From NCBI GenBank assembly GCA_947377285.1, contig CANCFT010000001.1, positions 62,001 through 126,000 on the forward strand: DNA of 64,000 nt. Reading direction: 5' to 3'. Under the pieces are notes generated by a model. The model saw only the letters and a program-made list of their open reading frames with translations, ran no database searches and was not told where the DNA came from. The translations under genes and the position numbers were made by a program. This DNA comes from Bacteriovoracaceae bacterium (GTDB lineage: Bacteria; Bdellovibrionota; Bacteriovoracia; Bacteriovoracales; Bacteriovoracaceae). Numbering within the stretch: the stretch's first letter is position 1; the number at the start of each line of letters is the position of its first letter. Positions 9,945-36,437 of this stretch are shown here, in pieces.

Positions 9945-10891
9945 AAAAATGTTTTTTAATTTTAATTGTTCTATTCACTATTCATTTGAATCTTTCAAGT
10001 GCCTGGGCAGATTGTGGGTATAGATTAGATAATCAAAGTCTCAATTACAATTTTTCTGATAATAATCTTGCAACTCAAGCAACTGTTTCGATAACAAGAC
10101 AAAAGGACAACGGAGTTAACTGTGCCAATTTTTTTCTAGCCTATACAAAAGGATGGTCTGGTAATTACAATCGTCGAGTTATAAACGTTGAGAACGGAAA
10201 TATTCTTTATTATAATATTTTTAAAAATAGTAATTTAACTGGAGTATTGAAAGAGTCAGGTGATATTTCTTCACCAGATGAGACTTTTATTGGATCACTC
10301 GTCAAAAATCAAACCAATTACTATTCTTACTACCTCGACTTAGCTCCACTAGGGGCAACTTTACCAGCCGCAGGAATATATTTAGATCAAATTCAAATTC
10401 AAGCTTATTCTGGAACTTACTCTAATACAAAAAGTTTTGAGACTGCTCGTGATTTATCAATCGTTGTATCTGTTCCTAAATTAACGTCAATTTCTTTAGT
10501 AGAGAGTGGAGGTTCATATGATCCAGCTCAAACTAGTAAAACATTGGATTTTGGCGAATTAGAAACCAATGAGGAATTGGGTTTTGATGTAAGAGTTGTT
10601 ACTAATGCAGGATATAAGTTAAAAGTTTCCTCCTCGAATAATGGATTATTAAAAATTCCAGGAAGTAATAATTCATTGTCTCAAATCTCTTATAATTTTT
10701 ACTCTAATGGCTCGCTTATAAATCTTGGAAGTTCTGCAAGTTCTTCTGTTACTATAGCTTCAGGAACAGGAGTGACAACTGCTCAAGGTGCCAAAGTTCC
10801 TATTAGAATAGTTATTGGATCCGTGGATGCTGCAAAGACTCCAGGTACGTACCAAGACTATTTAACGCTTTCAACTATTTCGTCAGATTAA
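9941..10891 (+). CDS. two-domain secreted subunit, probable pilus tip adhesin
   Basis: 316 residues with a signal peptide (MKKCFLILIV to SSAWA). The N-terminal half has two cysteines near residues 25 and 58 that could form a disulphide; the C-terminal half (about 170-316) is pilin-like with a final alternating strand (DYLTLSTI). A gene twice pilin length at the end of a chaperone-usher operon is usually the tip adhesin, with a receptor-binding domain fused to a pilin domain. The start overlaps the usher stop by four bases. The binding target cannot be read from sequence; prey or surface attachment is speculation. Confidence 0.65.
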   Translation: MKKCFLILIVLFTIHLNLSSAWADCGYRLDNQSLNYNFSDNNLATQATVSITRQKDNGVNCANFFLAYTKGWSGNYNRRVINVENGNILYYNIFKNSNLTGVLKESGDISSPDETFIGSLVKNQTNYYSYYLDLAPLGATLPAAGIYLDQIQIQAYSGTYSNTKSFETARDLSIVVSVPKLTSISLVESGGSYDPAQTSKTLDFGELETNEELGFDVRVVTNAGYKLKVSSSNNGLLKIPGSNNSLSQISYNFYSNGSLINLGSSASSSVTIASGTGVTTAQGAKVPIRIVIGSVDAAKTPGTYQDYLTLSTISSD

Positions 10892-10938
10892 TAAAGTTGA
10901 ATTGTCAAAATAGGGACGATTAAGTTAAAAGGAATTCT

Positions 10939-11937
10939 ATGCAAAAACAAATCTGTCTAACAGGAATTAAAGCCACCGGAATGCCCCATTTGGGAAATTA
11001 TATTGGCGCGATAAAACCGGCCATTGATATGGCCAACACTGGTTCATTTCAGTCTTATTATTTCATTGCTGACTATCATTCTTTAGTTTCTATTCATGAT
11101 GCTAAGATGATGAAAAATTATACTTACGAAGTGGCAGCTGCATGGCTTGCGATGGGTTTAGATCCCAAAGCTATTACACTCTATAAGCAAAGTGATATTC
11201 CAGAAATACTTGAACTTCATTGGATGCTTTCTTGTTTTACGACTAAAGGATTAATGAATCGAGCTCATGCTTATAAAGCAGTCGTTCAAGAAAATGAAGG
11301 ATTGGAAAGAGATTCAGATCACGGAATAAATATTGGTTTATTTACTTATCCAATTTTAATGGCCGCAGATATTATGATTCTCAATGCAGATGTTGTCCCT
11401 GTCGGCGCAGATCAACTTCAGCATATTGAAATAGCGAGAGATATCGCAACTGTATTTAATAATACATATGGCAGTAAACTTAAACTTCCAAAAGCAATTG
11501 TAAGTGAAGGAAACAAACTTCTTTCAGGACTTGATGGAAGAAAAATGAGTAAGAGTTACGGCAATCACATTCCATTATTTTCTAGTGATAAAGAATTAAA
11601 AAAACTTATCAACAGAATAACAACTGATTCAAGCGGTCCTCTAGATCCAAAAAATCCTGACGACTCACTGATCTTTGATTACTACGGACAATTTGCTTCA
11701 GCTGAGCAAACTTTAGCACTTCGAGCTTGGTACTTAAAAGGAATCGGATGGGGAGAAGCTAAAATGGAACTCCTATCAGTACTTAATTCTAGTCTCTCTG
11801 GACCTCGCGAAATATACGCCGAACTAATGGGTAATACTTCGAAAATTGACTTGATTTTAGAAGAGGGAGCAGCTCGGGTGAGACCACATGCTCAGAAATT
11901 AATAAGTGAATTAAAACAGTCCATAGGCTTGAAATAA
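10939..11937 (+). CDS. trpS: tryptophan--tRNA ligase
   Basis: 332 residues, the usual length for bacterial TrpRS, a class Ic synthetase charging tRNA-Trp. The HIGH-type signature is PHLGN (16-20) and the KMSKS loop is at 202-206 (RKMSKSYGN). The family segments with PVGADQLQH and the preceding GLFTYPILMAADI are also present. ATG 10939 has an AAAAGGA site. It starts 47 bases after the pilus locus, but its function is unrelated, so read-through may be incidental. Confidence 0.96.
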   Translation: MQKQICLTGIKATGMPHLGNYIGAIKPAIDMANTGSFQSYYFIADYHSLVSIHDAKMMKNYTYEVAAAWLAMGLDPKAITLYKQSDIPEILELHWMLSCFTTKGLMNRAHAYKAVVQENEGLERDSDHGINIGLFTYPILMAADIMILNADVVPVGADQLQHIEIARDIATVFNNTYGSKLKLPKAIVSEGNKLLSGLDGRKMSKSYGNHIPLFSSDKELKKLINRITTDSSGPLDPKNPDDSLIFDYYGQFASAEQTLALRAWYLKGIGWGEAKMELLSVLNSSLSGPREIYAELMGNTSKIDLILEEGAARVRPHAQKLISELKQSIGLK

Positions 11938-21919: not shown

Positions 21920-22067
21920 GAGGAACTCCAGGGGAATTGTTGATTTTCTTGTACTAAGAATTACCTGCTTTGTCTTCAAGCAAATGGATCATATTTAACT
22001 TCAAAATAGTTGAATTCTCTAGTGGCAGGTGCTATTTTGTCCCCCTAAACATGCCAGGGATAACACA

Positions 22068-23000
22068 ATGCTAAAAGATAACTTTTACTATTCATTTTCT
22101 AGTGATGCTCAAAATGAAATTTATGATTATATAAAATCCCTTCATACATATACAAAAATTGAAGAGGCGAAAATTTTAGGAAGTGACGATTGCTTAACTT
22201 TTAGAACTGAAGTTGAAGTAGTGAGAAAAGAATTAGAAAATGGAAAGCGAATTGTCATCGTTAAGCCATTTGTTGATTTTCAAAATAAATATACAATTTT
22301 AGAACAGAGAACTCTTTTTTGGTTAATGGGAAATGTTTTGGGAGAAACTCTCATCCAAAATGAAGCTGGCGATAGAGCTGTATTAGTCTATGACCGCGAT
22401 AGAACCAATTCAATGACAAAAGGTGCTCGTTATCACCAAACACGCGAAGGCGGAACAATCCACACAGATAATGTCAATGTTCCATTTAAGTGGGAATACC
22501 TACTTCTTGCCTGCATCTCTCCGGCGATGGCAGGTGGAGAAAATATTTTAGTTAATGCTCTCAATGTTTATAAAATTCTCAAAGAAAAACACCCCGATGT
22601 TTTAGCAATCCTTGAGAATAATTTTTTATGGGAACAACGTGGTGTGGCCGATGTTACATACGAGGCACCAATAATAACTTATAACTTATTAGGTGAACCC
22701 GAATTTCGCCATCTTCGTCCATATATGGAATCAGCTCATAAAAAATTAGAAAGACCATTATCAGATGAACAGATGTACGCTCTCGATACACTCGATGCGG
22801 TTTTAGAGCATTCGGATAATCAATATAGACATTCATTTGTTGCTGGAGAAATTCTACTTACGTACGATGCCCAAGTTCTTCATGGCAGAACTTGCTTCTC
22901 TGATGCTTTTAATGCTGTTGTTGTTCATGATTGGGTAAAAGATCATCACAAACCATTAAAAAGAACAATGGATCGCATCTGGGCTAAAAAAAGACAATAG
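22068..23000 (+). CDS. TauD/CAS-like Fe(II)/2-oxoglutarate oxygenase, phosphonate cluster
   Basis: 310 residues. The HxD...H iron triad is seen as H132-T-D134 and H272 (in VLHGR), in the fold pattern of the TauD / clavaminate-synthase-like family (GGTIHTDN, GGENILVNA). Such enzymes use O2 and 2-oxoglutarate to hydroxylate a substrate. Standing at the head of a phosphonate operon, it is a candidate for hydroxylating AEP, its lipid or a precursor at C1. The usual arginine about 10-15 residues after the last histidine, which holds 2-oxoglutarate, is not obvious here (only R274 is close). ATG 22068 follows AGGGA; the frame extends to 22029 without a better start. The next gene follows after 29 bases. 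Confidence 0.75.
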   Translation: MLKDNFYYSFSSDAQNEIYDYIKSLHTYTKIEEAKILGSDDCLTFRTEVEVVRKELENGKRIVIVKPFVDFQNKYTILEQRTLFWLMGNVLGETLIQNEAGDRAVLVYDRDRTNSMTKGARYHQTREGGTIHTDNVNVPFKWEYLLLACISPAMAGGENILVNALNVYKILKEKHPDVLAILENNFLWEQRGVADVTYEAPIITYNLLGEPEFRHLRPYMESAHKKLERPLSDEQMYALDTLDAVLEHSDNQYRHSFVAGEILLTYDAQVLHGRTCFSDAFNAVVVHDWVKDHHKPLKRTMDRIWAKKRQ

Positions 23001-23029
23001 ATTATTTAGGATTAAAGGAATTAAAGAAT

Positions 23030-23773
23030 ATGCCACAATATACAGCACTCATTTTAGCCGCAGGATATGGATCGAGAATTTCAGACGTCACAACTGATCC
23101 TAAAAGTTTACTAAAGATCAATGAAAAAACTTTAATGGACTGGCACTTTGAAGCATGGAAATCAGTCGGGATTCGCAATGTCGTTGTTGTTACAGGATAT
23201 AAAAAAGAAGTACTTGAGTCATACTTAGAAAAATATAAAATGGATTTTGATATTCATTTTGCGGTCAACGAAGATTATAGAGTGAAAGGTAATACCTTTT
23301 CTTTTCTGTATGGACTTGAAAAAATTCAAGGCAATTTTTTATTATTTGATGCTGACTTGATTTATGACAAAAAAATATTAGCAAGTTTTATTGAAGATGA
23401 ATCCCCTAATCAAATACTTGTTGGCGAAAGTTCAATTGATGATATTGAATGCGCCAAGACAATGATTGATCAAAATGGATTTGTCCGTTTAACAATTGAT
23501 AAGCGTGCTGTCTCTCCATCAGAGCGCGAAGAATTTGCTTTTGCAGGCGAGGCTATGGGAATATTAAAATTCTCACAAGCCTATAGAGACGATATGTACC
23601 AAGCTTGCGTTAGTTTTTTAAAAGAAGAAAAAAATATTTCAAAAAATTGGGAACACGTGATGAATGAGTTTTTACTCAATCACAATATGAATATTCATCG
23701 AACCGTTAGTGATCGGTGGGTAGAAATTGATAATAAAGAAGACTTGGAAAAAGCTAAAAGATTATTTGAATGA
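23030..23773 (+). CDS. MobA/PntC-type nucleotidyltransferase
   Basis: 247 residues of the sugar/alcohol-phosphate nucleotidyltransferase superfamily: N-terminal LILAAGYGSRI (NTP loop with G-x-G-x-R), DPKSLLKI lysine motif, LLFDADLIY (metal aspartate) and a closing WVEIDNKEDLEKA motif. Directly upstream of a CDP-alcohol phosphotransferase and in a cluster that makes AEP, the best inference is a CTP-dependent enzyme making CMP-AEP (or CMP-hydroxy-AEP), as PntC-type enzymes do. CTP versus other NTP use cannot be read from sequence. Its stop overlaps the next ATG (ATGA), so the two are translationally coupled. Confidence 0.8.
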   Translation: MPQYTALILAAGYGSRISDVTTDPKSLLKINEKTLMDWHFEAWKSVGIRNVVVVTGYKKEVLESYLEKYKMDFDIHFAVNEDYRVKGNTFSFLYGLEKIQGNFLLFDADLIYDKKILASFIEDESPNQILVGESSIDDIECAKTMIDQNGFVRLTIDKRAVSPSEREEFAFAGEAMGILKFSQAYRDDMYQACVSFLKEEKNISKNWEHVMNEFLLNHNMNIHRTVSDRWVEIDNKEDLEKAKRLFE

Positions 23774-24651
23774 ATTGGCTAAAAGAATATAAATTATCAC
23801 TAAAAAATCTTCATGCAGAAGAGCCACTCGATGTTTATTTTTATAGACCAATAGCTTTTATTGTTGTGAAAATTTTTTACCCATTACCAATTACTCCAAA
23901 CCATTACTCACTTGCAGCACTACTGTCGGGTATAGCGGCAGGTTACCATTTCTTAAAAGGAACGGCCCTTGGATTTAAATGGGGAGCCTTTTTCTTTTTA
24001 TTATTTGCCATTCTTGATTGTTGCGACGGAATGGTCGCAAGACTCAAAAAAAATGGAACAGAATTTGGTCGATTAATAGATGGGATAGTTGATTATCTCG
24101 TCAATGTTATCGTATATACGACAATTGCCTTAGGGTTAAAGAAACAATATTCTCCGGAATTAATTCAACCATGGATTCTTGTTGTCATTGCAGGTGTTTC
24201 AAAAGCAATTCATTCAATTTCGTACGACCACTATTTAACAGAATACCTTTCATATGAAAAAGGGGACAGTGGATTCGTCGTTAGAGAAATTGAAGATTTG
24301 CGCAATAGACTTGAGGAAAGTAAAAAAAATAACGGGGCCGGAATTCAGGTGCGCGTGCGAAGGTTCGCTCTAAATCTTTATTTGATGTATTCAAGTATCC
24401 AAGCAGGTACTCAAGAAAAGCCACTAGTTTTTAATCCAAGACAATATTGCGAAAAAAATTTACGAGCATTAAGAATGTGGTCTTTTATTGGTCCTTCTGT
24501 TCATATTTCTGTTTTAATAATAGCCTGTATTTTAAATGAACCAACCCTTTTATTTTTTCAAGCTGTAGTTTTTGGAAATTTATGGTTAATGATGATGTTT
24601 ATTTATCAATGTAAGATTAATCAGCAATTAGCTGAGGAAAAGGCAGCATGA
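23770..24651 (+). CDS. CDP-alcohol phosphatidyltransferase family enzyme
   Basis: The full family signature is present: D83xxD86G87xxA90R91 x8 G100 x3 D104 x3 D108. These residues bind CDP/CMP and two metals. About six membrane segments lie in 293 residues. Members transfer a head group between a CMP-activated donor and an alcohol acceptor at the cytoplasmic face of the inner membrane. In this operon the expected donor is CMP-AEP and the acceptor a lipid alcohol such as diacylglycerol or ceramide, giving a phosphonolipid with a C-P bond. ATGA overlaps at both ends couple it to the nucleotidyltransferase and to the LysE-type gene. Confidence 0.85.
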   Translation: MNWLKEYKLSLKNLHAEEPLDVYFYRPIAFIVVKIFYPLPITPNHYSLAALLSGIAAGYHFLKGTALGFKWGAFFFLLFAILDCCDGMVARLKKNGTEFGRLIDGIVDYLVNVIVYTTIALGLKKQYSPELIQPWILVVIAGVSKAIHSISYDHYLTEYLSYEKGDSGFVVREIEDLRNRLEESKKNNGAGIQVRVRRFALNLYLMYSSIQAGTQEKPLVFNPRQYCEKNLRALRMWSFIGPSVHISVLIIACILNEPTLLFFQAVVFGNLWLMMMFIYQCKINQQLAEEKAA

Positions 24652-25286
24652 TAACAGCATTAGTACTTGGTTTATTGACTGGCTTTTTAATTTGTATTCC
24701 AGTAGGGCCTATTAATGTTTGGGTAGTAAATACTCTAATTAAACATGATTTTAAATCAGCCTTTGCTATTGCTCTTGGTGGATCATTAATGGATTTCGTC
24801 TATTTTATGATTATTTTATCAGGACTTTCTCTTTTTCACTTTTCACCAAAAACAACTTTTATTCTAAAAATTGTTGGTGTGGTCTTTCTATTAATTTTTG
24901 GATTGAAAGAATTATTGACAAAAAAACAGGATTTTAAATTAGAACAAGATATCGACAAGAAAGAGCCGACAATATTAGCTTTTTTCTTATTAGGCGTAGC
25001 GATTTATTCATCAAATCCTACATTAGTTGCAACGATGTCAGGGCTTGCGGCAGTCATCAAGTCTTGGAATCTTTTTTTAAATTCTCTTTTAAACTATTTT
25101 GCTCTCTCTGTGGGCCTGGCCTTGGGTTCAGCTTCTTGGTTTTATCTATTATTGAAAATAGTTCAGAAGTATCAGAATCGAATCCCTGAAAAGTTTTTTA
25201 TCAACTTCAGCCGAACTTGTGGGGCGCTGATCGTACTCTTTAGCTTGTATATGGCCTTTAATGTTTATAAGGAAACCTTAATATGA
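24648..25286 (+). CDS. LysE/RhtB-family membrane transporter
   Basis: 212 residues with about six hydrophobic segments and the family motif near the N-terminus ([12 protein letters not shown]). LysE/RhtB proteins export amino acids and related small molecules. Coupled by ATGA overlaps on both sides inside the phosphonate operon, it could export an aminophosphonate or move the product lipid, or balance the intermediate pool; this is inference from position only. Confidence 0.75.
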
Positions 25287-26923
25287 AACAACCAATCGTA
25301 AAAAAAACAACTCAACTTAGACAAATGTTGAATTCAAGTGAGCTTGAATTCTTAATGGAAGCCCATAATGGTATGTCAGCAAAGATTGCTGAGGAAGCAG
25401 GATTCAAAGGTATTTGGGGATCTGGATTATCAATTTCAGCAGCATTAGGTGTACGCGATAATAATGAAGCTTCTTGGACGCAAGTTTTAGAAGTTGTAGA
25501 ATTTATGAGTGATGCCACTAAGATTCCTATTCTTTTAGATGGTGATACTGGATACGGAAACTTCAATAATATGAGAAGACTCGTGACAAAACTTGAGCAA
25601 CGTGGAGTTGCAGGAGTTTGTATTGAAGATAAAATTTTTCCTAAAACAAATTCATTTTTGCGTACTGAAGCTCAGCCTCTTGCAGACATGGATGAATTTT
25701 GTGGAAAAATTAAAGCCGGCCAAGATACTAAAAGTGATGATGATTTTAATATCATCGCAAGAGTTGAAGCACTTATTGCAGGTTGGGGATTAGGCGAAGC
25801 ACTTAAAAGAGCAGATGCTTATAGACTTGCTGGAGCAAACGGAATTTTAATGCACTCAAAAATTTCTAAGCCAGATGAAATTCTAGCTTTCATGAAAGAA
25901 TGGGGAGAAAGAAGTAAGTCGTGTCCTATCGTTATCGTTCCAACTAAATATTATGCAACTCCAACAAATGCTTTTAGAGAAGCCAATATATCTGTTTGTA
26001 TCTGGGCCAATCACCAAATGAGAATGGCGGTTACAGCTATGCAAAATGTAACTAAAACTATTTTTGAAGAACAATCTCTAATGAATGTTGAAGATAAAAT
26101 CGTTTCAGTTGCTGAACTTTTCCGTCTTCAAAATGATAAAGAACTTGAGGCAGCAGAAAAGTTATACTTATCAGTTGCAGATGCAGACAAACCAAGAGCT
26201 ATTTTTCTGGCAGCTTCTCGCGGAGCTGAGTTAAAAGAATTAACAGAAGATAAACCGAAAGTTTTAATTGATATCAATGGGAAGCCATTAATTGAGCAGT
26301 CAATTAATCATTTTTATGAACACGATATTAAAGATATTTCAATTGTTCGTGGATATAAAAAAGAAGCTTTTAAACTTCAAAATATTAAGTATTACGACAA
26401 TGATAATTTTGAATCAACAAGTGAGCTTACTTCTCTCTTTTTAGCAAAAAAAGAAATCGTTGATCATACTGTTATTTCTTATGGTGATATTCTTTATAGA
26501 AAATATATCCTAACTCGTTTATTAGAAGAAAAAGGCGATATCACAATTGTTGTAGATGCTGCTTTAACTCAAAGAGCTTCAGGTTACGAAGGAGACTTCG
26601 TTTTATGCTCTCGAGCACACAGCCATAGTATTTTCAATGCTGATAATGCTGAACTTAAAGGAATTAAATTTGGAAAAGCGTCAGAGAACAAAGAAGCTCA
26701 AGGTGAGTGGATTGGTTTGATGAAAACAAACAAGTTAGGTTCAGAAGTTCTTTCAAAAACTTTGGCAGAATTATCAACGGCTCCGGACTTCAATAAATTG
26801 AAATTACCGGATCTAATGAACAAACTTTTAGAGAAAAAAGTAAAAATAAATGTCATGTATATTGATGGTCATTGGTTGGATGTAGACAACTACTCTGACG
26901 TTTCTCGTGGGCAGAAATTTTAA
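25283..26923 (+). CDS. aepX: phosphoenolpyruvate mutase fused to nucleotidyltransferase
   Basis: The N-terminal domain (about 1-290) is PEP phosphomutase, which rearranges PEP to phosphonopyruvate and forms the C-P bond. The hallmark EDKxxxxxNS is present (E115-S124) with the metal site [10 protein letters not shown] (D86, D88). After a linker, the C-terminal domain (about 304-546) is nucleotidyltransferase-like: [22 protein letters not shown] and a closing GHWLDVDN. Its first loop reads LAASRGAEL rather than the usual LAAGxGSRL. PepM-PntC fusions are known, and the C-terminal domain is then a CTP:AEP cytidylyltransferase. The start overlaps the preceding stop (ATGA). Ppd follows 25 bases downstream. 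Confidence 0.93.
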
Positions 26924-26948
26924 TTAAAAGTATTTTACAGAGGCAAAT

Positions 26949-28106
26949 ATGATTTCAGCAGATAAGTTTTTAACTCCGGCACGTGAATTAGGTTTTAATT
27001 TTTTCACAGGGACTCCCTGTTCTTACCTAAAACCATTCATCAATTATGTAATTGATACAGATGGATTTGATTTCATCGACAGCGTGAATGAAGGTGATGC
27101 GCTTGCAATCGCTGCAGGAGCGACTATTGCTGGAAAACGTGCAGTTGTTATGTTTCAAAACTCAGGACTTGGGAACGCGGTTAACCCGATTACATCTCTG
27201 ACTTATACTTTTAATCTTCCAGTGATGATCATCACAACTCTTCGTGGAGAGCCAGGTGGAGCTCACGATGAACCTCAACATGAATTGATGGGGCAAATTA
27301 CAACTGAAATGCTTGAAACGATGAGACTGAAATGGGCCTATTTTCCTAATACTGAGGCTGAAGTCATGCCAGCTTTAAAATTGGCAGATGATCATATGAA
27401 ATCTACTCATCAACCATTTGTATTTGTGATGAGAAAGGACGATATTGCTGAATATAAACTTCAAAAAAAACCAGCGGTTTCAAAAAAATCTTTTTCAATT
27501 AATCATTCTGATCTTTTTGAGCTTGAATATAAAGAACGCACAACGAGAACTCCAGTTCTTGAAGTTATTCAAAATGTTTTAGGCCAAGAAGTTGCTGTGG
27601 TTGCCACGACTGGTAAAACAGGGCGTGAACTTTATGAAGTCGGCGATCTAAAAAATCAATTTTACATGGTTGGTTCTATGGGATGTGCCTTAGCTTTTGG
27701 GTTGGGAATTGCTTTAAATAAACCAGAGTTAAAAGTTCTAGTTGTTGATGGTGATGGAGCTCTTTTAATGCGAACAGGTTCAATGGCAACAGTGGGTGCC
27801 TATAAACCAAAAAATTTGATTCATTTACTTATCGATAATGAAGCTCATGATTCCACTGGGGGACAAGGAACAGTCACAGGTGGAATTTCTTTTGGGGCGA
27901 TTGCCAGTGCATTCGGATACGAAAAAGTTTACTCAACCGATAAACTAGAAACTTTTAAAAATATCCTTAATGAAGTCAAGAATTCAAATGCATCTACTTT
28001 TATCCATTTAAAAACACAAAAAGGCTCTCCTGAGAAATTGGGTAGACCAAAAGTAACACCGGCAGAAGTGAGTGTTCGTTTTGCTGAATTTATCCAATCT
28101 AAATAA
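26949..28106 (+). CDS. aepY: phosphonopyruvate decarboxylase
   Basis: 385 residues, a thiamine-diphosphate enzyme that makes phosphonoacetaldehyde and CO2 from phosphonopyruvate, pulling the unfavourable PEP mutase step forward. The N-terminal PYR domain has NEGDALAIAAGA with the activating glutamate. The RGEPGGAHDEPQHELMG segment is typical of this family. The C-terminal TPP-binding motif begins GDG (268-270) and runs to the DNEAHDSTGGQ segment. AGAGG precedes ATG 26949. A strong terminator directly after the stop marks the end of the first transcription unit of the cluster. Confidence 0.93.
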   Translation: MISADKFLTPARELGFNFFTGTPCSYLKPFINYVIDTDGFDFIDSVNEGDALAIAAGATIAGKRAVVMFQNSGLGNAVNPITSLTYTFNLPVMIITTLRGEPGGAHDEPQHELMGQITTEMLETMRLKWAYFPNTEAEVMPALKLADDHMKSTHQPFVFVMRKDDIAEYKLQKKPAVSKKSFSINHSDLFELEYKERTTRTPVLEVIQNVLGQEVAVVATTGKTGRELYEVGDLKNQFYMVGSMGCALAFGLGIALNKPELKVLVVDGDGALLMRTGSMATVGAYKPKNLIHLLIDNEAHDSTGGQGTVTGGISFGAIASAFGYEKVYSTDKLETFKNILNEVKNSNASTFIHLKTQKGSPEKLGRPKVTPAEVSVRFAEFIQSK

Positions 28107-28116
28107 TGAGTATAAT

Positions 28117-28147
28117 AAAAAAGCAGGAAATTTCCTGCTTTTTTTTT
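28117..28147 (+). terminator. intrinsic terminator after phosphonopyruvate decarboxylase
   Basis: AAAAAAGCAGGAAA (28117-28130) pairs with TTTCCTGCTTTTTT (28131-28144) with further T residues to 28147. It separates the operon 22068-28106 from the M13 peptidase and phnW genes; read-through may still occur. Confidence 0.9.
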
Positions 28148-28159
28148 GAAAAGGAATTC

Positions 28160-30160
28160 ATGATTATAAAAAAAATTATTCAAGTTTTGAGTTTTTTAAT
28201 AGCAGCAAATGCTTTTGGTGCAAGTAGCGAAATCCCTCTTAAACGAGTATTTCCCATAAACCCTAAAATAAGTCCTTGCGAAAATCTTTATGAGCACGCT
28301 TGTTCAAAAACGATTGAAAGTTTTCAATTGCGGGCAGATCGCAAGCGCCATTCATTTGCTTTTAGTGATTCAGCAGAACGTATTTTAGAATTTAAAAAAA
28401 ATTATTTATTGGATCTAAGTAAGAACAGCTTACCAAATGCTGGGGCCGATAGTGAACTTACAGGTCAAGTTAAAAATTTTTACTTATCTTGTATGAATAA
28501 AGATGCAAGGGCTAAAGAAGAAGTGAGTTTAGTTCAAAGTACGATTAAAAATCAAAATATGATTTCCTCTAAAGATTTGTGGGTAAAGGGCCAAGTGCTA
28601 AAAATGCACAGTGGAAAAAGTGGATTTTTAGGATATGGCATGGAGGATAATTTTGATGATTCAAGAAAATCCGATTTAATGATTGGTGTAGGGTATTCTT
28701 TTTTACCTGAAAAAAGTTATGCCAAAAATAATGAATTAGTTAAAGCTTTTAGAACACTTACAACTGAATACTTCAAGGCAATAGGTGTAGACCGTGCTGA
28801 GGAGCGTGCCTTAGTTATAGAGAAATATGAACTAGAGCAACAAGAGAATCGTTTATATCCAGTTGAGGCCCGCATTGCTTATTCACAAAGAAGGTTTGTT
28901 ACAAAAAATGAATTAATAAAACTTTTTCCAGATTTACAATTAAAAGTATTCCTAGATCAAATTCCCAATTCTACTTATATTCGTAATATCAATCCGAAAA
29001 CTATTCCCTTTCTCAATAAAATTGTTAAAACCTATTCTCTGGATGAACTTAAAACATTAGAACTTTTTTATGAACTTATTCATAAGCTAGACCTTGGATA
29101 TCCCCAAGTTTACGAAAAAAATTTTGAGTTTTCAAAAATCTTTCTAGGCGGAAAAATTAAAAGGTCAGTCTTAGATGAAGAATGCACCACTTTAACTATT
29201 GGCAGTTTTGGAGCGGAGTTAGATTATTTAATACTACCAAAGCTCTTTCCACATTTTTCTTCGGATAAAGTAGCCGAGTTAGTTGGAAAAATTAAAAGTA
29301 GTATTTTAGAATCGTTATCAAAAAATACTTGGCTGTCTTCAGAAGCAAAAAAAGAAGCAAGTAAAAAAATATCGACTGCCTTTATGAGACTTGTCGCTCC
29401 TCCAAAATTAGAAGATTGGAAGTTTTTACCAAGTTATTCCTATTCAGTGGATACATATTTGGCCAATAATGAAAAAAGAAATGAACTTTCTGATGAAAGA
29501 GAGTTTAAATATTTTACTGAACTTAAAGATATTCGTTCATGGGAAGGAGTTCAGCCATTAGTTGTTAATGCCTTTTATCAGCCGTCTTATAATCAATTCA
29601 CAATGCTTCAAGGAATTTTACAATATCCATTCTATGACCAAGAAAATTCAGAAATTGAAAATTTGGCCGGAGTAGGAATGGTTGTAGGTCATGAACTAGG
29701 CCATGCAATTGATGATCAAGGTTCTAAATATGACTCTGAAGGAAGGCTTCGTGACTGGATGACTGCCAAAGATTTATTGAAATTTAAAGAATTAACAAAG
29801 TCACTTATTGCTCAATACAATCAGGCCGGGATGAATGGGGAATATACTTTAGGTGAAAATATTGGAGACCTGGTTGGCTTAACAGCTGCCTATGATGCAG
29901 CCTTTAGTCAAAACACAACAACTCAAAAAACTCCATCGAAAGAAGAAAAGAAAAAATTCTTTTTAAACTATGCTCGCTCATGGTGTGAGGTTCAATTACC
30001 TGGAACTAAGCAGTTGCGTTTAAAGTCTGACCCACATTCCTTAGGTATTGCGAGAGTCAATGAAATCGTCAAACATTTTGCTGGTTTTCAAGAAGCGTTT
30101 GACTGCAAAGATACAGATCCAATGGTTTTACCTGCAGAAAAAAAAGTACATATTTGGTAG
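28160..30160 (+). CDS. secreted M13 (neprilysin/PepO-type) metallopeptidase
   Basis: 666 residues with a signal peptide (IIKKIIQVLSFLIAANAFGAS). The M13 zinc site is complete: HExxH as H511, E512, H515 (VGHELGHAIDDQG) and the third ligand E566 in GENIGD with D570. The family C-terminus is present (RVNEIVKHFAGFQEAFDC and a final W). M13 enzymes cut short peptides in the periplasm or outside the cell. ATG 28160 has AAGGA five bases upstream. It lies between ppd and phnW, separated from ppd by a terminator, so a link to phosphonate metabolism is doubtful. Confidence 0.93.
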   Translation: MIIKKIIQVLSFLIAANAFGASSEIPLKRVFPINPKISPCENLYEHACSKTIESFQLRADRKRHSFAFSDSAERILEFKKNYLLDLSKNSLPNAGADSELTGQVKNFYLSCMNKDARAKEEVSLVQSTIKNQNMISSKDLWVKGQVLKMHSGKSGFLGYGMEDNFDDSRKSDLMIGVGYSFLPEKSYAKNNELVKAFRTLTTEYFKAIGVDRAEERALVIEKYELEQQENRLYPVEARIAYSQRRFVTKNELIKLFPDLQLKVFLDQIPNSTYIRNINPKTIPFLNKIVKTYSLDELKTLELFYELIHKLDLGYPQVYEKNFEFSKIFLGGKIKRSVLDEECTTLTIGSFGAELDYLILPKLFPHFSSDKVAELVGKIKSSILESLSKNTWLSSEAKKEASKKISTAFMRLVAPPKLEDWKFLPSYSYSVDTYLANNEKRNELSDEREFKYFTELKDIRSWEGVQPLVVNAFYQPSYNQFTMLQGILQYPFYDQENSEIENLAGVGMVVGHELGHAIDDQGSKYDSEGRLRDWMTAKDLLKFKELTKSLIAQYNQAGMNGEYTLGENIGDLVGLTAAYDAAFSQNTTTQKTPSKEEKKKFFLNYARSWCEVQLPGTKQLRLKSDPHSLGIARVNEIVKHFAGFQEAFDCKDTDPMVLPAEKKVHIW

Positions 30161-30181
30161 TTATATATAACGAGGTTTTTT

Positions 30182-31294
30182 ATGAAACAAGTGAAACGAA
30201 ATATTCTTCTTAACCCAGGCCCTGCCACAACAACTGATACTGTGAAAAATGCAATGGTCGTTCCTGATATTTGCCCTAGAGAGATTGAGTTTGGCGAGTT
30301 AACTCTCTCGGTACGCAATGATCTTATTAGAGCGGCTTATGGTGAAAAAAACCATACCTGTGTTATGTTAACATCCTCTGGTACTGGTGGAGTTGAAGCA
30401 TGCTTAACTTCAGTCATTCCTCATGACAAAAAAGTTTTGATTCTCAATAATGGAGCCTACGGTGAGCGCATGCAAAAGATTTGTGATGCTTATCAAGTGG
30501 CCCATATTGATTATAACCAAGACTGGGGTCATCCATTAGATTTGAATATTGTTGATGAATTATTAAAAAAACACCAAAAGGAAATTTCACATTTGGCTTT
30601 TATTCACCATGAGACGACAGTGGGGATTCTTAATCCACTAAGTGAGCTTTCAACTATTGCTCAAAAATATAATGTAGAAACAATTGTTGATGCAATGTCA
30701 TCTTTTGCTGGTCTAAAAATTGATGTTGAAAAAGATAATATTCATTACCTCGTATCTTCTTCCAATAAATGTATCCAAGGAATGGCAGGTATTAGCTTTG
30801 TTATTGCCAATTTAAAATCTTTACTCAAAACTCGAGAAATTAAAGCTCGCAATTACTATTTCAATCTACTAGAAAATCATCTTTATCTAGAAAAAAATAA
30901 GCAATTTCTTTTCACACCACCGGTTCAAACTCTCTATGCTTTAAGACAGGCAGTTTCTGAATATTTTGAAGAAGGTCCAGAAAATCGATTTGCTCGATAT
31001 GCCTCTATGTATGAAATAATGAAGAAAAAAGTTCGTGAACTTGGATTTACATTTTTAGTGGAAGAGAAACATCACGCCAAATTATTAACATCTATTATGG
31101 ATCCCAAATCTCCAGCGTATTCATTTAATGAAATGCATGACTATTTATTCGAGCGAGGCTTTACTATTTACCCTGGGAAAGTCGGTCATATCAATACTTT
31201 TAGGCTTTCTAATATAGGGGCCATATATCCCAAAGATATTGAAGATTTCTTGAAAGTATTTGAAGAATACCTTCGTGTGAAAAAAATTATTTAA
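30182..31294 (+). CDS. phnW: 2-aminoethylphosphonate--pyruvate transaminase
   Basis: 370 residues, class V aminotransferase fold. The family-typical N-terminal segment LLNPGPATTTDTVK, the SSGTGGVEA phosphate-binding loop and the PLP lysine K196 in SSSNKCIQG are present. In phosphonate synthesis the enzyme runs in the direction phosphonoacetaldehyde plus an amino donor to AEP, completing the route begun by PEP mutase and decarboxylase upstream. No phosphonatase (phnX) gene is nearby, which favours synthesis over breakdown. It starts 21 bases after the M13 gene. Confidence 0.92.
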   Translation: MKQVKRNILLNPGPATTTDTVKNAMVVPDICPREIEFGELTLSVRNDLIRAAYGEKNHTCVMLTSSGTGGVEACLTSVIPHDKKVLILNNGAYGERMQKICDAYQVAHIDYNQDWGHPLDLNIVDELLKKHQKEISHLAFIHHETTVGILNPLSELSTIAQKYNVETIVDAMSSFAGLKIDVEKDNIHYLVSSSNKCIQGMAGISFVIANLKSLLKTREIKARNYYFNLLENHLYLEKNKQFLFTPPVQTLYALRQAVSEYFEEGPENRFARYASMYEIMKKKVRELGFTFLVEEKHHAKLLTSIMDPKSPAYSFNEMHDYLFERGFTIYPGKVGHINTFRLSNIGAIYPKDIEDFLKVFEEYLRVKKII

Positions 31295-32306: not shown

Positions 32307-33299
32307 TTGAAGAAGAGCTTACTTGCATTGTTTTTTATTTTTATCTTTTTCTCGAGTAGGGTTTTCGCTTATGATCATGAATTTATCATTACTGATATTG
32401 TAAGTGATCAAAATTTACAAATTGAGCGATTAGATAAGCAAATAGAAGTTTTACCTGGTGATATTTTAGCCATTTATTCACACCAATCAAATGAAGTCTT
32501 AGGTTATGCTATTGTCGATTCAATTACTGATAGTTCTGACTTATTTATGGTCACGATAGAAAGCCATCATAAAAATGGACTCATTAGACCAGAGAATTAT
32601 CTAAGGAAATTAGATTTAACAAGATTAAATAACGATATACCAGCACGGTACGATTTAGCTTATAAGGCCGGAAGTAATATTGCTTCTAAGTATCGACCAT
32701 TAGTCTATGCGGGCTTAATTCAGGGAATGACCGCTACTAATTTAAATAAAAGTGAATGGATCATTGGTCCTTCTATTTTAGCTTATGGTCTAACGGCTAA
32801 TTCTCAATTGGATATTAATTTAGCATCGACTCTTTTTGGTGTTTTAAATTTAGGTTTGAAAAATAAATTAATAGATAATGATGACTACGAGTTAGCAATA
32901 GAAAATGGATTTCAGTATTACCCAAGTACAAAAAAAGGCTCCTATCAATTTACCGGATATTTGGATATGGCCTCGAATTCTAATTTTAAATCTTATGCGA
33001 AATTTAAGTTATTTACTAAAAAACCTGAAGATCAATCAATAAGCAATAATGAAGAATATAGTCGAGATTTTAACTTAGAACTCCAACTTGCTTATGGTTA
33101 TATCTTTTCGAATTGGAATCAAATGATTTTTGGACCAAAAGTTGATGTTAACAAAAAACATGTTGGTGGAGTTATTGGTTATTATATTTTAGATAAAAAT
33201 ATTAATACTATGTTTGGTGTTTCTTCTAATGATTTTTCTGAACTTCGTCTCGGGAAACAAGCATATTTACTTAATTTAGATCTCTGGTGGAGATTTTAA
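32307..33299 (+). CDS. secreted, probable outer-membrane beta-barrel protein, unknown function
   Basis: 330 residues with a signal peptide (KKSLLALFFIFIFFSSRVFA). The first 90 mature residues form a compact domain that looks like a small beta unit (ITDIVSDQNLQIERLD...EVLPGDILAIY). The remainder is made of alternating strands ending WWRF, typical of outer-membrane barrels. No family recognised. The TTG start at 32307 has no strong ribosome-binding site. It is divergent from the MaoC gene and meets mtnC with a four-base overlap. Confidence 0.6.
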   Translation: MKKSLLALFFIFIFFSSRVFAYDHEFIITDIVSDQNLQIERLDKQIEVLPGDILAIYSHQSNEVLGYAIVDSITDSSDLFMVTIESHHKNGLIRPENYLRKLDLTRLNNDIPARYDLAYKAGSNIASKYRPLVYAGLIQGMTATNLNKSEWIIGPSILAYGLTANSQLDINLASTLFGVLNLGLKNKLIDNDDYELAIENGFQYYPSTKKGSYQFTGYLDMASNSNFKSYAKFKLFTKKPEDQSISNNEEYSRDFNLELQLAYGYIFSNWNQMIFGPKVDVNKKHVGGVIGYYILDKNINTMFGVSSNDFSELRLGKQAYLLNLDLWWRF

Positions 33300-33976
33300 A
33301 CTGTAATTTCATCAAATGATTTAACTTGCGCGTGACCCGTGTTGGGTACAGTTCCAATTCTTACAAGTTGTACGGTTTGAAAACCTGCGGTCTTAGCAGC
33401 ATCTAATTCTTCAGAAATATCAGAAAGAAAAAGAATATCTTTAGAGGGGATGCTTAATTGCTGGCTAATTTTCTGATAACTTGCGATTTCACGTTTGTGA
33501 CCAATAGTTGTATCAAAATTATTTGAAATGAATTTATTGAGATTGCCAAAAAGTGAAAATCCAAACAAATCTTTTTGAGCCTTGATAGATCCTGAAGAAT
33601 AAATTCCGAGTGTAATATTTTTATTTTTCCATTTTTCTAAAACAGCAGGCACTTCTTGATAAACATGTCCTTTAATTTCTCCTGATGTATAGCCTTCGTT
33701 CCAAATTAGCCCTTGAAGTTTTTTAAGAGCAGGGTGTTTTCTATCGACATTTATCCATTCAATGAGTTGATTAATAATTTGTTGATTATTGGGTAAATGG
33801 TTTTGCTCATTATTTACAGTGAGTTTTACTTCCTCGAAAATTGTTAAAATTTCAGGATCATTTTGATGAGAGTTAATAAATGCAGGAATTCTCTCTTTAG
33901 AGTAGGGAAATAAGATATCATGAACAAAACTTATCGAAGTGGTTGTCCCTTCGATATCCATTAAAATATATTTCAT
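33296..33976 (-). CDS. mtnC: acireductone synthase (enolase-phosphatase)
   Basis: 226 residues of the HAD superfamily. The nucleophile motif is MDIEGTTTS (D7, E9), followed by IYSSGSIKAQKDLF and the SDISEELDAAKTAGF metal segment, all typical of MtnC. It converts 2,3-diketo-5-methylthiopentyl-1-phosphate to acireductone in methionine salvage. It is the last gene of mtnB-mtnD-mtnC, starting with an ATGA overlap. Confidence 0.94.
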   Translation of the reverse strand: MKYILMDIEGTTTSISFVHDILFPYSKERIPAFINSHQNDPEILTIFEEVKLTVNNEQNHLPNNQQIINQLIEWINVDRKHPALKKLQGLIWNEGYTSGEIKGHVYQEVPAVLEKWKNKNITLGIYSSGSIKAQKDLFGFSLFGNLNKFISNNFDTTIGHKREIASYQKISQQLSIPSKDILFLSDISEELDAAKTAGFQTVQLVRIGTVPNTGHAQVKSFDEITV

Positions 33977-34506
33977 AAATTATGAATCGGGTTATAGTTC
34001 GCGTCGATTCCTGAGTCTGTATAATTAGGAACCCAACCTTCAATATTTGAAAATATTCTAATGGCCTTAACAAAATATTGTGGAGCTAAGTCAAACCAAT
34101 GGCGAAAGTTTTTTGGTACAGACATAAAGTCACCTCGCTCACAAGTAACACAAAGAATTTCTTCATTATCTAAATGAAACCAAAATTTACCGACACCATC
34201 TACAAAAAATCGAATTTCGTCTTCACTATGCGTATGCTCTTTCATGAATTTTTCTCTGATCACTAAAAGATTAGGCGTCTCCGGGTGAACATTGATAACG
34301 TCAGCAACAGCATAGCCGTTTTTTTTCATGAAGGGATTAAGTTCATGAGCATAAGCTGCAAGTATTGTCTCTTGATCAGCATCGATTGAAAGCTCCTTAG
34401 AAGCGATCCATTGATCAATCATAATTCCATGTTGAAACAAAAGGTTTTTAATACTCGTGAAATCTGTAATAGTTATGTTTTCTTTTGCAATTAATAAGCT
34501 TGCCAT
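33973..34506 (-). CDS. mtnD: acireductone dioxygenase
   Basis: 177 residues, a cupin with the metal ligands H91, H93, E97 (KEHTHSEDE) and H136 (FRHWF). With Fe(II) it makes 4-methylthio-2-oxobutanoate and formate; with Ni(II) the off-pathway product forms. It overlaps mtnB by one base and mtnC by four, so the three are one translational unit. Confidence 0.95.
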   Translation of the reverse strand: MASLLIAKENITITDFTSIKNLLFQHGIMIDQWIASKELSIDADQETILAAYAHELNPFMKKNGYAVADVINVHPETPNLLVIREKFMKEHTHSEDEIRFFVDGVGKFWFHLDNEEILCVTCERGDFMSVPKNFRHWFDLAPQYFVKAIRIFSNIEGWVPNYTDSGIDANYNPIHNL

Positions 34507-35153
34507 TAGTAACCTCTTCGTGAATTTAGATAATACTTAAATATATATTCAAAAACTTCTAAGTGCCGTTTAGCTTCTTCAACACTATCACCCCAAACAT
34601 ATACTCCGTGGCCCCTTAAAAGTAGTCCATAATTATTTTTTTGCTCTAATATTGCCGGTTTAATTTGTTCCGCTAAAAGTGCAATGTCTTGAGTGTTATC
34701 AAAACATGGAATATTTATTTTGAGTTCGTGAGTTTTAACACCTTTGAAGCCTTTCAATAATTCAAGCCCTTCTATCGTGGCATAAAGTTTTCCATAAAAC
34801 AGATCGGCAAACAATAGAGAGTCGAGGAGGTGACTATGTAGGACGCAGTTAGCTTTTGTAATTTGGTAAATAGTTAAATGAATATCTGTTTCATCTGATG
34901 ACTTGCGGTTTGATTTTAAATAGTCTGGATGCATTTTTCTAGTTTCAAAAAAGATGGGGAGAAAGTTGTCTTCGCTGAATCTACTTTTATCAATTCCAGA
35001 CTCTGAGACTAGTGCGATATCAGGACTAGTTTTCGAGCGCAGTGAATAGTTTCCACTAGTCGCAGGATTGTGGCCTAAACTATTCATAACTCTTACAAGA
35101 GTGGCCAGTTTTTTCATTTCTTCATAGTCTTGAGCGCTAATGATAAAAGACAC
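34506..35153 (-). CDS. mtnB: methylthioribulose-1-phosphate dehydratase
   Basis: 215 residues of the class II aldolase family: ATSGNYSLR near the N-terminus, zinc ligands H106 and H108 (LHSHLLDS) and the late LLRGHGVYVWG motif. It dehydrates methylthioribulose-1-phosphate in methionine salvage. First gene of the mtnBDC operon, with AGGA just before the ATG. mtnA and mtnK/mtnN are not in this window. Confidence 0.94.
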   Translation of the reverse strand: MSFIISAQDYEEMKKLATLVRVMNSLGHNPATSGNYSLRSKTSPDIALVSESGIDKSRFSEDNFLPIFFETRKMHPDYLKSNRKSSDETDIHLTIYQITKANCVLHSHLLDSLLFADLFYGKLYATIEGLELLKGFKGVKTHELKINIPCFDNTQDIALLAEQIKPAILEQKNNYGLLLRGHGVYVWGDSVEEAKRHLEVFEYIFKYYLNSRRGY

Positions 35154-35279: not shown

Positions 35280-36437
35280 ATGAAGCCATTCAATCATGCA
35301 GTGACAAATTTTAAAGAATCGATCTTTTCGACCATGACTAAACTAGCTATTACACATGAAGCAATTAATCTCTCTCAGGGGTTTCCCGACTTTGAAGGAC
35401 CAAAGTGGATCATTGACCTAGCTAAAAATGCGATGGATCAAGGTCATCTCAATGGAAATGTTGGTAAAAATCAATATGCTCCTTCATTCGGTATACTTCC
35501 ACTTAGAGAAGCGATTGCGAATAATTACAAAAGATTTTACGGAGTTGAATTTAATCCTCTCAATGAAATAGTTGTTACCAATGGAGCGACAGAAGCCATT
35601 TTTTGTACTTGCATGGCCTTACTTAACCCAGGGGACGAAGTCGTAGTCTTTGAGCCATTTTATGATTCTTATTTAGCATCATTACAAATGGTTGGAGCGG
35701 TAATAAAGCCTGTCACTTTAATCGCCCCTGATTTTTCATTTGATAAAAATGAATTATTCTCAGCAATAGGGCCAAAAACAAAAATGCTTATTTTAAATAA
35801 TCCACATAATCCAACTGGAAAAATATTTTCACTGGCAGAAATTAAATTGATTGCTGAACTTGCAAGAAAATTTGATTTTCTTATTTTATCAGACGAAGTT
35901 TATGAATTTTTAACTTTTGATGAGTCTCATATCCCTACTGCTTCTTTTGAAGACCTAGCAGTTCGGACAATTACGATTTCTTCAACAGGGAAAACGTTTG
36001 GCTTAACAGGTTGGAAAATTGGTTGGGCAGCAGGTCCTGCTGATATAATTAAAGCGATTCATAATGTACATCAATTCACTACTTTTTGCGTGGCCCATCC
36101 TCTTCAAGTAGCGATGGCCGAAGCACTTAATAAAATGGATGAGTACTTAGTCGATTTTAAAAAGCAGTACCGTAATAAAAGAGACTTATTAGTTACAGGG
36201 CTAAAAGCTGCAGGCTTCAACGTCTTAAATCCTGCCGGGACCTATTTTGCGATGGCAATTCTTAAGGAAGGTGAAAATGATATTGAATTTTGCCAGAAAC
36301 TTATATTAGAAAAGAAAGTTGCCGTTATTCCAACTTCTGCTTTTTATATGAAATCAAACGCAGGTAGTTCAATGATTCGTTTTTGTTTTGCTAAAACAGA
36401 TGAGACCTTGAAAGCGGCATTGAAAAATTTAAACTAA
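35280..36437 (+). CDS. methionine-type PLP aminotransferase (salvage last step)
   Basis: 385 residues, class I/II aminotransferase. Features: NLSQGFPDFEGP near the N-terminus, NNPHNPTGK, and the PLP lysine K238 in SSTGKTFGLTGWKIG. The overall pattern resembles the YbdL-type methionine aminotransferase. Divergent from mtnBDC and sharing their control region, it is well placed to convert 4-methylthio-2-oxobutanoate to methionine. A kynurenine or broad-range aminotransferase is the main alternative. Confidence 0.88.
   Translation: MKPFNHAVTNFKESIFSTMTKLAITHEAINLSQGFPDFEGPKWIIDLAKNAMDQGHLNGNVGKNQYAPSFGILPLREAIANNYKRFYGVEFNPLNEIVVTNGATEAIFCTCMALLNPGDEVVVFEPFYDSYLASLQMVGAVIKPVTLIAPDFSFDKNELFSAIGPKTKMLILNNPHNPTGKIFSLAEIKLIAELARKFDFLILSDEVYEFLTFDESHIPTASFEDLAVRTITISSTGKTFGLTGWKIGWAAGPADIIKAIHNVHQFTTFCVAHPLQVAMAEALNKMDEYLVDFKKQYRNKRDLLVTGLKAAGFNVLNPAGTYFAMAILKEGENDIEFCQKLILEKKVAVIPTSAFYMKSNAGSSMIRFCFAKTDETLKAALKNLN

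Follow-up and report, generated by a model that had tools for sequence, protein, structure and literature searches.

A conserved phosphonate gene cluster as the candidate source of a ceramide phosphonolipid head group in Bacteriovorax relatives

Gene content of the locus

We analyzed a 64,000-nucleotide stretch of DNA (the window; G000:C1:62001-126000) from the draft genome of a Bacteriovoracaceae bacterium (the source genome; 3.45 Mb, 68 contigs), in which genes for phosphonate synthesis lie on one strand together with genes for a TauD-type Fe(II)/2-oxoglutarate oxygenase (TauD), a stand-alone nucleotidyltransferase (NTP), a CDP-alcohol phosphotransferase (CDPOH), and a LysE-family membrane protein (LysE) (Table 1). 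This gene set very probably builds membrane lipids with a carbon–phosphorus head group. The first-pass annotation of this DNA had claimed a complete route from phosphoenolpyruvate (PEP) to 2-aminoethylphosphonate (AEP), and family scans placed all three enzymes of that route above their equivalog cut-offs: PEP mutase (PepM) scored 393.6 bits with TIGR02320 against a cut-off of 319.55, and the scores of phosphonopyruvate decarboxylase (Ppd) and AEP aminotransferase (AEPT) given in Table 1 compare with cut-offs of 312.5 and 360.8, respectively. The PepM translation also fits the Ppm motif EDKxxxxxNS (PMC6697681). The LysE-type membrane protein and the Fe/2-oxoglutarate oxygenase of the same annotation were confirmed by their matches to PF01810 and PF02668. 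An Rfam scan of the window gave no matches.

Table 1. Features of the phosphonate locus, in positions of the window.
Feature	Position	Strand	Evidence
TauD-type Fe(II)/2-oxoglutarate oxygenase (TauD), candidate AEP or AEP-lipid hydroxylase	22068..23000	+	PF02668 4.3e-19
Stand-alone PntC-like cytidylyltransferase (NTP)	23030..23773	+	canonical motif LAAGYGSRISDVTTDPK; best PDB 6pd1
CDP-alcohol phosphotransferase (CDPOH), proposed CMP-AEP:ceramide transferase	23770..24651	+	PF01066 1e-11
LysE-family membrane protein, possible flippase or exporter	24648..25286	+	PF01810 8e-21
PEP mutase (PepM) fused to a nucleotidyltransferase-like domain without the motif Arg	25283..26923	+	TIGR02320 3.8e-118
Phosphonopyruvate decarboxylase (Ppd)	26949..28106	+	TIGR03297 416.4 bits
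M13 metallopeptidase, probable bystander; start probably 28161	28106..30160	+	PF01431, PF05649
2-Aminoethylphosphonate aminotransferase (AEPT)	30182..31294	+	TIGR03301 417.4 bits
Terminator-like hairpin with T run	28114..28147 (arms 28114-28130/28131-28147)	+	inverted repeat after Ppd
Promoter-like stretch TTGAATTCTCTAGTGGCAGGTGCTATTTTG 5' of the first gene	22010..22039	+	resemblance by eye

Conservation in relatives

Of 129 genomes of the class, 30 gave a TIGR02320 match, 22 of them above the cut-off. TauD was found in 20 of the 129, and a search of 368 genomes of the phylum with a 14-row profile gave the same 20. Gene maps showed the order TauD-NTP-CDPOH-LysE-PepM-Ppd on one strand and one contig in 12 of the 20 TauD genomes, the window included, and the identity of CDPOH to that of the window falls to 33% among these order-conserving genomes. 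In four of the twelve (G005, G006, G007, and G010) the order is interrupted by the gene of a GNAT acetyltransferase of about 173 residues between PepM and Ppd, which might N-acetylate AEP; no such gene is present in the window. These GNATs (172–174 residues, PF13302, cluster strand) lie at L041:8321-8845 (G005), L042:9029-9553 (G010), L045:8447-8968 (G007), and L047:6816-7334 (G006).

Other clusters deviate from the common order or are incomplete. The gene maps showed no LysE match in the G113 cluster and none between CDPOH and PepM in G012, where these two genes adjoin, and the G015 cluster has no CDPOH in place. The clusters of G002 and G069 reach contig ends, and those of G008, G014, and G016 are split across contigs. 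The set of G053 (L053:5991-10562) consists of PepM, Ppd, a nucleotidyltransferase, and AEPT, with no match to TauD, CDPOH, or LysE in the fetched stretch.

Nucleotidyltransferase domains

Both of the nucleotidyltransferase domains that had been claimed for the locus were found in family scans, but the one fused to PepM lacks the Arg of PntC. The PntC motif is GxG(T/S)Rx4-8PK; substitution of Ala for Arg15, Lys25, or Lys153 of Tde-PntC left less than 10% of the activity, and the two PntCs assayed used AEP, with CMP-AEP identified as the product (PMC6697681). The stand-alone NTP of the window fits this motif, with GYGSRISDVTTDPK, and the motif Arg is kept in 19 of 19 aligned rows (rows of more than 200 bits, the G053 protein being left out). 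Its nearest solved structures are the PntC-AEPT 6pd1 (9.3e-15) and then LicC 1jyk. The PntCs of Treponema denticola (6pd1/6pd2), the best solved relative, and of Atopobium rimae (PMC6697681) share the GxG(T/S)R..PK motif with it, but T. denticola PntC is fused to AEPT, whereas the putative PntC of the window is free-standing.

In the domain fused to PepM the corresponding sequence is LAASRGAEL, which lacks the Arg of GxG(T/S)R and thus did not match the PntC motif. The Arg is missing in 20 of 20 rows, one of which (L053, from G053) belongs to a different cluster. This alignment held rows of more than 300 bits and 300 residues, with the fragments of G012 and the N-terminal piece of G014 excluded, as well as the distant PepMs of G028, G060, G061, G071, G075, G107, G109, G119, and G128. 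The same residues, LAASRG, occur in the fused domains of Mycetohabitans, Burkholderia stagnalis, and Cupriavidus, and LAASAG in that of Roseomonas; the Arg-less fused domain is therefore a trait wider than the Bacteriovorax group. Two equivalent cytidylyltransferases were ruled out by the presence of the Arg in 19 of 19 stand-alone versus 0 of 20 fused rows. The fused domain is probably a non-catalytic or altered partner, suggesting that some PEP-mutase-fused nucleotidyltransferase domains may be inactive as cytidylyltransferases.

Head-group transfer

The first-pass annotation had described a CDP-alcohol phosphotransferase with an intact signature. The protein matches PF01066 and holds the complete D-x2-D-G-x2-A-R-x8-G-x3-D-x3-D, which we take to be the signature of the family; D83, D86, G87, A90, R91, G100, D104, and D108 are invariant among 15 aligned homologues. 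A CDPOH match was found in 19 of the 20 cluster genomes and none in the broken G016 assembly. This count argues against a pathway that modifies a surface glycan or yields a small phosphonate for release rather than a lipid, as does the finding that family scans returned no glycosyltransferase or LicD family among the proteins of the set; we regard such a product as highly improbable.

A scan of named genomes with a single CDPOH sequence returned two loci. The source genome carries a second CDP-alcohol transferase (G000:C5:12318-13208, L122), 26% identical to that of the cluster, which falls into a separate clade of eight rows in the CDPOH tree (midpoint root, two G008 fragments left out).

Comparison with known arrays

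The array on pBRH01 of Mycetohabitans rhizoxinica resembles that of the window in holding CDPOH, an oxygenase annotated as 2OG-Fe(II), a membrane protein, NTP, a PepM-NTP fusion (LAASRG), Ppd, and AEPT, and open reading frames matching the Mycetohabitans set are found in the same order in Burkholderia stagnalis and Cupriavidus sp. P-10. However, the Mycetohabitans oxygenase matches HalD (PF23169) where the window has TauD, the membrane protein matches LPG_synthase_TM where the window has LysE, and the CDPOH is shorter and remote from that of the window (27.9 bits). The TauD and LysE of the window had no match among the 11 Mycetohabitans and Roseomonas proteins compared.

A cluster of a Nostoc lichen cyanobiont, which we liken to the window by its description, comprises CDPOH, OG-Fe(II) oxidase, NTPT, pepM, ppd, and AEPT; its putative membrane protein is HpnL, and the accessible text describes no sphingolipid link (PMC5987646). 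The set of Nostoc and Burkholderia was interpreted there, after Yu 2013, as serving phosphonolipid synthesis. In Roseomonas marmotae (L169:6909-19572) a similar phosphonate set lies beside the hopanoid genes hpnH and shc, which suggests that groups may differ in their lipid acceptor.

Ceramide genes and the lipid acceptor

Hydroxy-AEP has been reported in membranes of Bacteriovorax stolpii (PMC8154272 and PMC12366243, citing Watanabe 2001), where the phosphonate is linked to a sphingoid base (PMC6148460), and the serine palmitoyltransferase (SPT) of B. stolpii has already been characterized. The first-pass annotation had attributed sphingophosphonolipids with both AEP and 1-hydroxy-AEP to this species; the latter is supported second-hand by the citing papers, whereas nothing was found on plain AEP in their accessible text. 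No head-group genes for the B. stolpii lipid were assigned in the literature found, which covered few subscription papers, and the same literature held no lipid data for the source organism. The chemistry was measured in B. stolpii, whereas the source organism is known from its genes, among which both a ceramide-type locus and the head-group genes are present.

A single AONS-family match at 1e-10 was found in the source genome, and SPTs are the closest solved structures to this protein. Its gene has as neighbors those of a GNAT-like acyltransferase, an NAD-epimerase-like (reductase-like) protein, and an FA_hydroxylase, so that the arrangement expected of a ceramide pathway, SPT next to acyltransferase-like and reductase-like genes, is present. 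By gene arrangement only, this locus resembles the Spt, bCerS, and CerR genes that form the ceramide pathway of Caulobacter (PMC11087976), but differs from that set in the nearby FA_hydroxylase. Among 66 additional orthologue-bearing genomes we inspected 14 further SPT loci, 10 from genomes that have the cluster and 4 from genomes that do not: GNAT was found within the stretch in all 14, the epimerase-like gene in 13, and FA_hydroxylase in 13. A comparison of the GNAT with solved structures gave one chance-level match.

SPT orthologues were defined as best matches above 520 bits; of 73 genomes with a match at 1e-60, this retained 67 and removed six with a best match below 400 bits (G065, G066, G067, G074, G108, and G109). 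Of the 20 cluster genomes, 19 had an orthologue, versus 48 of 109 others (Fisher p = 1.1e-5 by genome, uncorrected for descent). In G012, the cluster genome with no SPT, the contig carrying the GNAT, epimerase-like, and FA_hydroxylase genes breaks off immediately ahead of where SPT would be expected. We did not accept this co-occurrence as proof, since 13 of the 19 SPT-bearing cluster genomes belong to one genus and counting by genus leaves a weak association (7 of 7 genera, Fisher p = 0.028, likewise uncorrected for descent).

Physical linkage was observed in two sister species. In G015 an orthologue of CDPOH lies outside the cluster (L119:9114-10019), with a second, ceramide-synthase-like GNAT at 7965-9098 on its 5' side, 72% identical to the GNAT of the source genome, and on its 3' side a fatty-acid desaturase at 10108-11118 with the sphingolipid delta4-desaturase domain PF08557. 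This CDPOH groups with the cluster enzymes (20-row clade, 100/100) and, within them, with the Bacteriovorax enzymes nearest to that of the window (fork 91/88, not starred). In G016 the LysE-PepM-Ppd genes are preceded, 94 bases away and on the same strand, by the end of a 208-residue desaturase piece, of which 171 residues are identical to the G015 desaturase. The SPT locus of G069 contains a homologous desaturase (355 bits). Since head-group genes adjoin sphingolipid-type genes in G015 and G016, a ceramide acceptor is supported, and more weakly also the assignment of TauD as an AEP hydroxylase. The earlier proposal that this set makes AEP-type ceramide lipids in Bacteriovorax is therefore partly supported, by the ceramide-type locus of the source genome and by the linkage in G015 and G016.

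Several observations weigh against a ceramide acceptor. Linkage of CDPOH to ceramide-type genes was seen in G015 alone and not in the window, the cluster of the window holds no sphingolipid gene, and the source genome has no PF08557 match (41 of the 129 genomes have one). Both linkages come from draft genomes (G015 and G016) of a single genus and may reflect one event. The source SPT scored 487.7 bits with its best library model, NF047600 (serine palmitoyltransferase), under the cut-off of 640. Nor need the acceptor be ceramide, as Burkholderiaceae have similar sets and that of Roseomonas lies beside hopanoid genes.

CDP-alcohol phosphotransferases commonly act on diacylglycerol-type substrates. 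The head group could thus be placed on diacylglycerol, giving a glycerophosphonolipid (the phosphono analogue of phosphatidylethanolamine), while the ceramide locus would use other head groups; this would fit the Mycetohabitans and Roseomonas stretches, which show the same plan without an annotated ceramide gene, and the much wider occurrence of SPT (67 of 129 genomes) than of the cluster. We nevertheless consider it quite unlikely, given that the head-group genes of G015 and G016 adjoin ceramide-synthase-like and sphingolipid-desaturase-like genes and that the phosphonate reported from B. stolpii is linked to a sphingolipid.

TauD oxygenase

Residues H132, D134, H272, and R303 of TauD are invariant in 14 aligned rows, and we take them to be the HxD...H iron triad and the distal Arg, respectively. 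The triad aligns with that of FrbJ, a phosphonate-pathway oxygenase, which was also the best solved match (5eqn, 2.1e-12, 50.3 bits). The best NCBIfam match was TmpA (trimethyl-AEP hydroxylase), with 42.9 bits against a cut-off of 400. As TauD is remote from the characterized phosphonate oxygenases FrbJ and TmpA, hydroxylation is the weakest of the enzyme assignments.

Of the 20 genomes with TauD, 19 carry it next to the stand-alone NTP gene, the copy in G016 being cut by a contig end. TauD is present in 18 of the 22 genomes with PepM above the cut-off; in G012 and G014 TauD is present and PepM is split by contig ends. Searches of viral contigs found no relative of TauD, and searches of plasmids found 20 records, all below 60% identity (26–30% among the 10 of the 20 that were listed).

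A TauD paralogue of 40% identity lies beside hemN in the source genome (G000:C7:110756-111649, L121), with relatives in G006, G009, and G013, and G008 carries an extra TauD (L131:3610-4518) that is 62% identical to that of the window, on a contig without any other cluster-gene match.

Such copies outside the cluster weigh against the assignment of TauD as an AEP hydroxylase, as do other findings. Four genomes with PepM above the cut-off have no TauD (G053, G061, G109, and G128), and G061 (L120:6993-10364) has CDPOH and LysE beside a 618-residue PntC-AEPT-like fusion, with no TauD match. The TauD count is partly circular, because TauD entered into the definition of a cluster genome. The AlphaFold model of TauD, built with three close sequences, had a mean pLDDT of 45, too poor for use.

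TauD might act on the sphingoid base, the acyl chain, or another molecule, which would leave plain AEP as the head group. The low scores with TmpA and FrbJ, the arrangement in G061, and the paralogue beside hemN all speak for this possibility, which we nonetheless judge somewhat unlikely: TauD is the first gene of the cluster, adjoining NTP, in 19 of the 20 genomes having it, the SPT locus already holds an FA_hydroxylase gene, and the membranes of B. stolpii are reported to contain hydroxy-AEP.

Transcription unit and neighboring genes

The first-pass annotation had presented the set as one operon with four ATGA junctions. Three of these are credible overlaps between real genes (23770, 24648, and 25283), whereas the fourth (28106) opens the doubtful start of an M13 gene. 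This gene, previously unmentioned, splits Ppd from AEPT, and a terminator-like hairpin lies 3' of Ppd, so that a single operon extending to AEPT was ruled out. Folding gave the hairpin -15 kcal/mol (z -4.16), and none of 200 shuffles was as good. A pattern scan did not include this hairpin among its sites; the scan returned 32 promoter-like sites (38.6 in shuffles, standard deviation 6.6) and 10 terminator-like sites (6.3, standard deviation 2.3), and it therefore carries little weight. The genes from TauD to Ppd are likely to form the unit, with the hairpin as its probable end and with M13 and AEPT outside. The M13 peptidase was also rejected as a pathway member, since, of 15 cluster stretches with both Ppd and AEPT in view, 6 have its gene between them.

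Judged by eye, a stretch like TTGAATTCTCTAGTGGCAGGTGCTATTTTG lies 5' of TauD in several Bacteriovorax relatives and 5' of LysE in G016; none was seen by eye in more distant genera, and a regular expression for the stretch matched nothing. Further along the window, at 33296-35153 on the minus strand, three open reading frames presumably belong with methionine-salvage genes (enolase-phosphatase, acireductone dioxygenase, and MtnB-like, judged by reading), and an aminotransferase-like open reading frame lies beside them at 35280-36437.

Discussion

We propose, with a probability of about 0.65, that this cluster is responsible for the head group of a ceramide phosphonolipid. PepM would convert PEP into phosphonopyruvate, Ppd would decarboxylate the latter, and the aminotransferase would then yield AEP, which the stand-alone PntC-like NTP would activate to CMP-AEP. 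CDPOH would transfer the phosphonate to the 1-OH of a ceramide supplied by the SPT locus elsewhere in the genome. TauD is predicted to hydroxylate C1 of AEP, whether free, activated, or lipid-bound, giving a 1-hydroxy-AEP head group as reported for B. stolpii, and LysE would probably serve in lipid flipping or substrate transport.

The general plan of such a pathway is already known, since Mycetohabitans carries the array and the set of Nostoc and Burkholderia has been called phosphonolipid synthesis. As far as the literature was searched, what is new is the variant with TauD and LysE, the linkage to ceramide genes, and the agreement with a reported lipid whose head-group genes had not been assigned. 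More tentatively, and at somewhat less than even odds in our estimate, the cluster could represent the first complete genetic route put forward for a bacterial ceramide phosphonolipid. Such a route would comprise a CMP-AEP:ceramide phosphonotransferase of the CDP-alcohol fold and a new biosynthetic AEP hydroxylase of the TauD family, with unrelated oxygenases (TauD here, HalD-like in Burkholderiaceae) and unrelated membrane proteins occupying the same slots and the fused cytidylyltransferase domain retained as a non-catalytic partner.

Each step now has one candidate gene, so that deletions, or reconstruction in a ceramide-making laboratory strain, can test the pathway. The cluster supplies a candidate enzyme for the formation of hydroxy-AEP in a lipid pathway, and it offers candidate genes and a testable genetic basis for the lipid reported from Bacteriovorax in 2001.

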